This document shows, piece by piece, positions 1 through 60,937 of a DNA stretch of 64,000 nucleotides. The stretch's first letter is position 1, and each line of letters opens with the position of its first letter. The position numbers and the translations under genes were made by a program. The notes under the pieces are model-generated. The model was given only the letters and a program-made list of their open reading frames with translations, did no database searches and had not been told where the DNA came from. The stretch comes from Rhodospirillaceae bacterium. GTDB lineage: Bacteria; Pseudomonadota; Alphaproteobacteria; MPNO01; UBA2964. The stretch spans positions 1-64,000 of the forward strand of contig PBIN01000010.1 in the NCBI GenBank assembly GCA_002720855.1, in the 5' to 3' direction.

Positions 1-26
1 AACCTAAGGCTTATAAAGTTCACAGT

Positions 27-128
27 GATGAATAGGTTCTCCTATGCATCACGTCATTGGATCCTCATCCCATCCTTTTGACGCCTCCCTGTTGAAACTA
101 GAACCGGCTTTGTGGCGGTTCTTTTTTG
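27..128 (+). ncRNA. Structured small RNA, copy 1 of a tandem pair
   Basis: No protein is encoded here. Three hairpins follow one another: 27-50 (GATG/CATC and ATAGG/CCTAT around TTCT), 52-83 (CGTCA/TGACG enclosing GGAT/ATCC), and a Rho-independent terminator at 100-127. Between the last two lies the unpaired motif CCTCCCTGTT (84-93), which resembles an anti-Shine-Dalgarno stretch. The central part recurs almost unchanged exactly 200 bases downstream, while the outer hairpins differ in sequence but keep their pairing. This looks like a trans-acting, Hfq-type alphaproteobacterial sRNA. From memory it resembles the suhB/alpha-r8 (MmgR) RNA family, but I could not search Rfam. The 5' end is inferred from the first hairpin. 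Confidence 0.72.
100..127 (+). terminator. Rho-independent terminator of sRNA copy 1
   Basis: AGAACCG (100-106) pairs with CGGTTCT (116-122) and is followed by a run of six T. Compared with copy 2, one A-T pair is replaced by G-C on both sides, so the stem has been kept by a compensatory change. Confidence 0.85.
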
Positions 129-189
129 TCTACGTAATTAAGAAATGTTTCTTTCGATGCTCAATCGAGTTCTAAACAAGTAATATTTG

Positions 190-205
190 TTAACCTTTCA
201 TTAAC
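190..205 (+). promoter_or_regulatory. Candidate CtrA box (TTAA-N7-TTAAC)
   Basis: TTAA at 190-193, seven bases, then TTAAC at 201-205: an exact match to the full CtrA recognition sequence of alphaproteobacteria. It lies 24-39 bases before the inferred 5' end of sRNA copy 2, which is the -35 region where CtrA usually acts. The next protein gene downstream resembles rcdA, a regulator of CtrA degradation. The surrounding DNA is AT-rich, so a chance match is possible. Confidence 0.45.
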
Positions 206-228
206 TATAACAACCTATGTTTGTATTT

Positions 229-327
229 GACGGTTGGTCTCCCTTCCGTCACGTCAATGGATCCTCATCCCATCCTTTTGACGCCTCCCTGTTGAACTAG
301 AGCCGCCCTCGTGGCGGCTCTTTTTTC
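229..327 (+). ncRNA. Structured small RNA, copy 2 of a tandem pair
   Basis: Same architecture as copy 1. A 5' hairpin at 229-250 (GACGG/CCGTC) is followed by a hairpin at 252-283 (CGTCAA/TTGACG enclosing GGAT/ATCC, with CCTCATCCC in the loop), the motif CCTCCCTGTT at 284-293, and a terminator at 299-326. The middle hairpin is better paired than in copy 1. About 100 bases separate it from the end of copy 1, enough for its own promoter, and a CtrA-type box sits in that gap. It probably base-pairs with ribosome binding sites through its C-rich loops; this is inferred from the motif. Family assignment as for copy 1. Confidence 0.75.
299..326 (+). terminator. Rho-independent terminator of sRNA copy 2
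   Basis: A perfect nine-base stem, AGAGCCGCC (299-307) with GGCGGCTCT (313-321), around CTCGT, followed by six T. It separates the RNA from the protein gene that starts at 393. Confidence 0.9.
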
Positions 328-392: not shown

Positions 393-800
393 ATGTCAGA
401 TACAGCGCCATTAAATCCCTTCGTCGAAAAAACGTATCAGGATACATACGAATTGCTGGTATCCATCCGCGATTATATTTCGGGCCCCATGGAACAAGAG
501 GCGGAGAAGCTGGAAGCGCCGGATCAACTCAGGTTAACTCGAGAGCTGTCCAGTATGACTCGCGATTTAACGGATGCAATGGCGTGGCTAATGATGCAGA
601 AGGCGATTGAAGCAGGCGAGCTCAGCCAGGAAGATGCTGACGCCGAACCCGCCGGAAACCTCGTCAAAAATGCCGGCGAAACAGACGAATTAGAAGATGC
701 AGAGGGATTAGCGCGGCTGCCGATTACCGCCCGTAGTTTGATCGACCGATCACGCAGGATTTGCGCCATGGTTCGACAATTGTCGACAGACCAGGATTAA
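393..800 (+). CDS. rcdA: DUF1465 / RcdA-like protein (regulator of CtrA degradation)
   Basis: A 135-residue acidic, helical protein with no signal peptide. The C-terminus, around ARLPITARSLIDRSRRI, matches the ending I associate with DUF1465, the family of Caulobacter RcdA. In Caulobacter RcdA is an adaptor that helps ClpXP degrade CtrA at the G1-S transition. An ATG at 393 is preferred over the in-frame TTG at 381; neither has a strong ribosome binding site. The gene converges with rpmE and follows the sRNA pair. The family call is from memory of the domain and is moderately secure. The cell-cycle role is known for Caulobacter and only inferred here. Confidence 0.65.
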   Translation: MSDTAPLNPFVEKTYQDTYELLVSIRDYISGPMEQEAEKLEAPDQLRLTRELSSMTRDLTDAMAWLMMQKAIEAGELSQEDADAEPAGNLVKNAGETDELEDAEGLARLPITARSLIDRSRRICAMVRQLSTDQD

Positions 801-23012: not shown

Positions 23013-23021
23013 ATTCAAATA

Positions 23022-23172
23022 GATGCTGCGTAGTGCGAGAGACAATACATCCCTTGGGCCAATGTATTTCTCTAGGGAGCTGTCCCTACCGGAGCCCTGG
23101 TTTCGGCATACGGCGCCCACCTGCTTACGCGGGCCTTAGAGGATGACTTCGTCGAACGGCTATCGCGGCATC
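23022..23172 (+). ncRNA. ssrS: 6S RNA
   Basis: The 204-base gap between zapA and the 5-FCL gene is the classic site of 6S RNA. The ends pair as a long closing stem: GATGC with GCATC, then GCGTAG with CTATCGC (23022-23033 with 23160-23172). The interior contains further short stems and a purine/pyrimidine-balanced central region that could form the open-complex-like bubble. 6S RNA traps sigma-70 RNA polymerase in stationary phase. Exact ends are inferred from the stem. Confidence 0.82.
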
Positions 23173-23216
23173 ACCTATAGATGTGAAGCTCTAGTTTTAG
23201 AAAGTAGACGTTCTCT

Positions 23217-60695: not shown

Positions 60696-60798
60696 AACGA
60701 CTTTCCTTGCCGCACTTTCTTCGAACAGGAAATCAATATTTACGCCGTTTGGACGGATTCGTCCATGTTCTCGTGAGGTTCCAATTTACGAGAAAGAC

Positions 60799-60826
60799 AA
60801 AAAAAGGCCGGGCCCGAAGGCCCGGC
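60799..60826 (-). terminator. Rho-independent terminator with TTCG loop
   Basis: Minus strand: GCCGGGCC-TTCG-GGCCCGGC, a perfect eight-base stem, then C and seven T. It ends the ncRNA and any read-through from lysR. Confidence 0.93.
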
Positions 60827-60937
60827 AAGATAACAGGGAGGCTTCACGTCTAGAAGACGTTGGATCCGAAGACCCATTTCCGAATGTTGCACCCGGAAAT
60901 CATGCGCTGAAGAAATTCAGAAGCTTTCCTTCAGCAT
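60799..60937 (-). ncRNA. Highly structured ncRNA candidate with CCTCCCTGTT-plus-terminator end
   Basis: On the minus strand four hairpins follow one another: GCTGAAG/CTTCAGC (60935-60906), ATTTCCG/CGGAAAT (60900-60876), GGGTC-TTCG-GATCC (60875-60862) and ACGTCT/AGACGT (60860-60846). Then comes CCTCCCTGTT (60841-60832), identical to the motif in the two RNAs at the left edge, and a terminator at 60826-60799. Two loops are TTCG. No coding frame was found. The promoter may be at 60940-61040, or the RNA may be processed from the lysR 3' end. The role is unknown. Confidence 0.68.

Follow-up and report, generated by a model that had tools for sequence, protein, structure and literature searches.

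Two predicted tandem small RNA genes at the start of the contig

Two predicted small RNA (sRNA) genes open contig PBIN01000010.1, at approximately positions 27-127 and 228-327, with a spacing of exactly 200 bp. Coordinates refer to the window, that is, the whole 64-kb stretch of DNA that was analysed, and both genes lie on the plus strand. Each copy carries a 5' hairpin, a middle hairpin with a C-rich loop, a free CCUCCCUGUU and a terminator. The sequence-only reading had described a pair of elements of about 100 nt, 200 bases apart, with these parts, and sequence and folding confirmed it.

Copy 1, with its start predicted at approximately 26-27, consists of the 5' hairpin (27-50, by folding), the middle hairpin (52-83, by folding and covariation) with the C-rich loop CCUCAUCCC, the free anti-Shine-Dalgarno stretch CCUCCCUGUU (84-93, by sequence and folding) and a terminator (100-127) of seven outer pairs, one broken inner pair and a T run. 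Copy 2 has a predicted start at approximately 228; its middle hairpin (252-283) and free stretch (284-293) were located by the same evidence, and its terminator (299-326) has nine pairs and a T run. A block of 39 nt is identical between the copies (58-96 and 258-296), and the free stretch was invariant in 16 aligned sequences.

The pair is followed by a gene for a DUF1465 protein (393-800, plus strand; PF07323, 61.4 bits, cut-off 25). The next gene, at 827-1051 on the minus strand, is by its sequence profile a fixed neighbour of DUF1465 and, read from its sequence, encodes ribosomal protein L31.

RNA structure and covariation

Both copies folded more stably than expected (z = -3.6 for 27-130 and z = -6.6 for 227-327), and none of 200 shuffled sequences was equally stable. 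Compensatory changes in the stems had been proposed from the two copies. We observed one such change in the terminator (A-U in copy 1, G-C in copy 2), but a second change breaks a pair of copy 1. Similarly, the outer hairpins had been said to keep pairing despite their changes; both 5' hairpins do fold, but they are different sequences.

Covariation became strong only once class-wide homologues were included. When the first alignment was folded with RNAalifold, the resulting structure (model R1) had a wrong middle helix; we replaced it with model R2, for which the structure was supplied by hand. Among 41 distinct rows from 35 sources, 18 of the 19 modelled pairs were changed on both sides, in all three modelled helices. 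In this alignment, which was itself fitted to the structure, 53 cells were changed on both sides; shuffles gave 11.4 such cells and slid-structure controls no more than 19. Two of the rows (L005 and L006, plus strand) are weak and probably due to chance, and the window's own 60.8-kb element, described below, is also included. Copy 2 obtained the top score among all 42 model matches (109.2 bits). A longest-stem test of the middle hairpin gave a mean of 6.5 pairs against 4.7 in shuffled sequences (41 sequences), but this test is blunt and selects an incorrect helix for both copies of the window; the same stretch folded in 46 homologues had a median z of only -1.25. The elements are kept in related genomes. 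Taken together, folding and covariation support the earlier proposal of tandem structured sRNAs under structural selection.

Gene neighbourhood

The gene order quinone oxidoreductase - DUF1192 - sRNA - DUF1465 - L31 occurs in the genus of the window and recurs in numerous distant families (the name quinone oxidoreductase is read from the sequence). The DUF1465 protein of the window scored 44.3 bits against the NCBIfam RcdA model NF051867 (cut-off 170, E = 1.8e-11), and judging from its sequence it is RcdA-like. In other species RcdA is one adaptor for CtrA proteolysis (PMC8959179).

We compared the occurrence of both genes in 80 genomes that we picked ourselves. DUF1465 was present in 33 of the 34 genomes with a strong sRNA match (9 in the window's order and 25 outside it at E < 1e-6, among them G393, which has the other sRNA type described below) and in 9 of the 34 without one (18 in the order, weak or decayed matches included, and 16 outside); the remaining 12 genomes were intermediate. 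Of the 13 genomes in the window's family, six had both, and the other seven had neither DUF1465 nor a strong sRNA match. Among these seven, G008 and G010 gave weak sRNA matches (E = 8e-4 to 9e-4), and that of G010 is of the other type.

A predicted CtrA-type promoter

A CtrA-type box, TTAACCTTTCATTAA, lies at 190-204 before copy 2, followed by a -10-like element (TATGTT, 216-221) recognised by alignment on the box. No other exact TTAA-N7-TTAA occurs in the 64 kb, where 0.8 would be expected by chance, so that the count means nothing alone; its position does. The promoter of copy 1 is cut by the contig start. The last two bases of its box are window positions 1-2, the remainder (GTTAACCATTCTTTAACC) is found on contig C15 of the same assembly, and a -10-like element (TATAAA, 12-17) follows by sequence and by alignment on the box. 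The boxes of both copies are perfect. A TTAA-N7-TTAA over the -35 region, a feature of the CtrA regulon, is present at the pair; the spacing of seven is the CtrA rule (PMC12403871, PMC3616915). A simple sigma-70 scan found no promoter at the locus, and the CtrA-type promoter rests on box statistics and alignment.

For these statistics we used 45 unique homologues, each having a 17-nt core with at most four mismatches, a T run and at least 110 nt of upstream sequence. The box was exact in 22 of them and had seven or eight of the eight letters in 38. Other spacers gave at most 5 exact boxes and at most 21 with seven or eight letters (the figure of 21 belongs to spacer 6 and partly counts the same sites shifted by one), while shuffles gave 0.37 and 4.9, respectively. 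The 38 boxed homologues span 18 families, the place of the box is nearly fixed and the -10 element stands at a fixed distance from it. Aligned on the box, these sequences share G-1, CC+4/5, T+7, C+15 and the -10 positions T26, A27 and T31, none of them letters used for selection, in rows that are not independent by descent. The implied start, approximately +38, falls at the base of the 5' hairpin in each of the window's copies. Seven homologues had no good box: L057, L070 and L075 (the other sRNA type), L018 and L019 (which look decayed), L040 and L107.

Duplication and decay

Three genomes (G000, which is the window's own, G003 and G007) have individual counterparts of copy 1 and of copy 2, and the doubling therefore predates them. 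G009 also has two copies, 216 apart. No annotation was found for the related two-copy genomes G003, G007 and G009. G001 and G004 have one copy, which combines the 5' hairpin of copy 1 with the 3' flank of copy 2. Since distant single copies within the order have a hairpin like that of copy 2, these one-copy forms may have arisen by deletion between the two repeats. The end of contig C15 (G000:C15:1-155, L002) overlaps the window start and is also a one-copy form, exactly 200 bp shorter, with its crossover within the 39-bp shared block; it is either a one-copy allele or an assembly jump.

Some relatives showed signs of decay. In G023 and G014 (L018 and L019) a degraded sRNA stood together with truncated DUF1465 matches, an apparent joint decay. 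G001 (L005) had a stop codon in DUF1465, one sRNA copy and a broken T run.

CtrA and Hfq genes

A search with the NF045991 profile detected no CtrA in the window's genome, which is listed as 98.2% complete. The best match (177.5 bits), a response regulator on contig C15, was rejected as CtrA, being closer to PmrA. CtrA was likewise not found in six of the eight other members of the order with a strong sRNA match. The window's genome also gave no match for FliI, whose gene lies next to ctrA in G007. The ctrA gene of this genome is either in an assembly gap or lost, and it may truly be lost, as FliI is missing too. Of all the evidence, the failure to find CtrA speaks most strongly against a functioning CtrA circuit in the window's organism.

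Over the 80 genomes, CtrA exceeded the NF045991 cut-off in 45. Outside the order it was present in 22 of 25 sRNA genomes (E < 1e-6) and in 11 of 16 without a match, a weak contrast. Within the order only G009, which has a whole gene, was over the cut-off; a frame-shifted full-length gene was found in G007. The latter (G007:C15:74184-74960, L124) has one frameshift and lies between genes that we presume from their sequences to be fliI and cheR. In the one-contig genome G002 the fliI flank was present and the ctrA part had no match. An Hfq gene was detected in the window's genome (113 bits).

Relationship to known sRNA families

No Rfam family exceeded its cut-off at the tandem pair. BjrC1505 (RF02356) scored 42.5 bits for copy 2 and 26.3 for copy 1, below the gathering cut-off of 50, and 41.3 bits for the one-copy form on C15. 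SorX (RF02784; 38.5 and 29.2 bits, cut-off 46.6) had the smallest E-value of the best sub-threshold alphaproteobacterial matches, and SorY (RF02651) reached 27.0 bits (cut-off 111). Both have CUCCCUGUUG and a terminator in common with the pair.

Relatives of the pair did exceed the RF02356 cut-off, at 4 of 15 loci in one set and 9 of 20 in another. Eight of these loci (L015, L020, L037, L039, L040, L041, L050 and L054) are flanked by DUF1192 and DUF1465, and several relatives over the cut-off have the same DUF1192-sRNA-DUF1465-L31 order as the window. The 3' half of BjrC1505, with UUUGACGCCUCCCUGUU and the GAGCCGCC terminator, is shared by the window pair, which differs in scoring under 50 and in its tandem arrangement. 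Because relatives pass the cut-off and share the gene order, we treat the pair as putative sub-threshold orthologues of BjrC1505, judged by score, synteny and shared core. Positions 1 to approximately 45 of the RF02356 model align with window 184-228, which is CtrA box and promoter DNA; by this alignment the Rfam model probably extends into the promoter, and its cut-off appears too strict for these members. BjrC names originate from Bradyrhizobium japonicum (PMC7143759). In a full-text search of mostly open-access papers, BjrC1505 appeared as a table entry only and no function was found.

Other known RNAs resemble the pair in part. The CcsR or cuckoo RNAs of Rhodobacter, which have a C-rich motif, are also small RNAs in tandem. 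A single RpoH-driven transcript, which also includes a DUF1127 gene, is processed into the four CcsR RNAs (PMC10253847), while the window's copies have predicted separate promoters and terminators and DUF1192 and DUF1465 as neighbours. CcnA of Caulobacter, a CtrA-dependent non-coding RNA that uses a C-rich loop (PMC8959179), resembles in these respects what we propose for the pair; it is encoded at the replication origin, unlike the window pair. Two S. meliloti sRNAs were rejected as the same locus: GspR, which targets ctrA, is flanked by SMc03844 and by the thioredoxin-fold gene SMc03845, and EcpR1 adjoins rpmG.

Proposed function and alternative explanations

We consider it likely, with a probability of roughly 0.7, that the pair represents two tandem BjrC1505-type, trans-acting sRNA genes that are CtrA-activated, Hfq-assisted and anti-Shine-Dalgarno in action. 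The RNA-like structure, the covariation, the BjrC1505 orthology, the conserved box, -10 element and spacing, the DUF1192-DUF1465/RcdA synteny and the presence of Hfq are computed results. From them we infer that each copy would be transcribed as its own unit of about 100 nt, from a CtrA-type promoter with the box overlapping the -35 region to its own terminator. CtrA would bind there and switch the sRNA on in the CtrA-containing relatives. Through its free CCUCCCUGUU and its C-rich loop the sRNA would repress mRNAs by pairing with their Shine-Dalgarno regions, probably with the assistance of Hfq; any particular target, and any effect on RcdA, would be hypothetical. Anti-Shine-Dalgarno action through a CCUCCC core has been shown for the alpha-r8 sRNA SisA (PMC12559287).

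It had been suggested that the copies resemble suhB/alpha-r8 (MmgR) RNAs, and the pair could in principle be tandem-duplicated members of that family (MmgR, SisA-D). The architecture is indeed the same: hairpin, free CCUCCCU and terminator, with an anti-Shine-Dalgarno mode, and alpha-r8 copies may also stand side by side (PMC12559287). The match to suhB (RF00519; 27.4 bits, E = 0.00097) is nevertheless below the cut-off of 41 and below both BjrC1505 and SorX. The 10-mer UUUCCUCCCU, which defines alpha-r8 in the same paper, had no match in the 64-kb window. Most single alpha-r8 copies adjoin a formylglutamate amidohydrolase gene, and the upstream regions of the Caulobacter siblings have no common motif (PMC12559287); the window pair has DUF1192 and DUF1465/RcdA as neighbours, and its upstream regions share a motif. 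We regard membership of suhB/alpha-r8 as very improbable, and the family link proposed earlier was not supported. An unlikely but less remote explanation is that promoter, hairpins and terminators form a regulated leader (attenuator) of the downstream rcdA, through which CtrA regulates rcdA, the short RNA being a by-product. Only 66 nt separate the end of the copy 2 T run from the rcdA start codon, and DUF1465 co-occurs with the sRNA as described above. In addition, CtrA motifs upstream of rcdA have been published for S. meliloti (PMC3616915) and for agrobacteria, whose sites reportedly stand at a greater upstream distance than those of Caulobacter (PMC10469942). On the other hand, families f45, f61 and f84 have the sRNA and its box next to DUF1192 but rcdA at another place (preceded by a separate box in the two f84 genomes), which argues that the box is not merely that of rcdA. 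In f68 and f71 the box is kept although neither neighbour was detected within 1.5 kb of the sRNA, and two full copies with two terminators would be odd for a leader.

The pair in the window's genome might also be a relic, CtrA having been lost and the locus starting to decay. The missing CtrA and FliI, the broken pair in the copy 1 terminator and the decay in G001, G014 and G023 are consistent with this. Against it, copy 2 has the top score of all model matches, both boxes are perfect, the DUF1465 reading frame is open, and ctrA may sit in an assembly gap. We find a relic rather improbable and retain the reading as CtrA-activated, BjrC1505-type sRNA genes.

The pair thus belongs to a known kind of sRNA, and the link with CtrA and RcdA is the interesting part. 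These results suggest a specific place for an uncharacterised, class-wide sRNA family, under CtrA and beside the gene of an adaptor for CtrA proteolysis. More tentatively, and at somewhat less than even odds, the BjrC1505 family may be a conserved sRNA that the CtrA regulon has as its own throughout the Alphaproteobacteria. From a single place, the DUF1192-rcdA locus in which the sRNA would be embedded, CtrA would switch on both an anti-Shine-Dalgarno riboregulator and, by read-through, the adaptor for its own destruction; in the window's genus the sRNA would have been doubled with a separate CtrA box for each copy. In the mostly open-access literature that was searched on rcdA, sRNAs and CtrA, no description of an sRNA of the window type was found.

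A target scan over the 59 open reading frames of the window gave no convincing mRNA target. In three related records (L004, L005 and L006), AACAGGG(A/G)G precedes the start of a gene 3.2 kb downstream that we take from its sequence to be of the TctC type. The match to the free motif is 9 nt in L004 and L006 and contains one G-U in L005; in the window only GGGGAG is present.

Other RNA elements in the window

A third sRNA-like element was observed at 60797-60904 on the minus strand, between genes that read as LysR-type and TauD-like. It has a hairpin with a UUCG loop, a hairpin ACGUCUUCUAGACGU, GAAGCCUCCCUGUU and a strong terminator, and scored 31.2 bits for SorX and 27.1 bits for suhB, both below cut-off. 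The same sRNA type occurs in G010 (L070), G014 (L075) and G393 (L057), without a CtrA box. A 6S RNA was also detected, at 23020-23175 on the plus strand (73.7 bits, cut-off 46.4).
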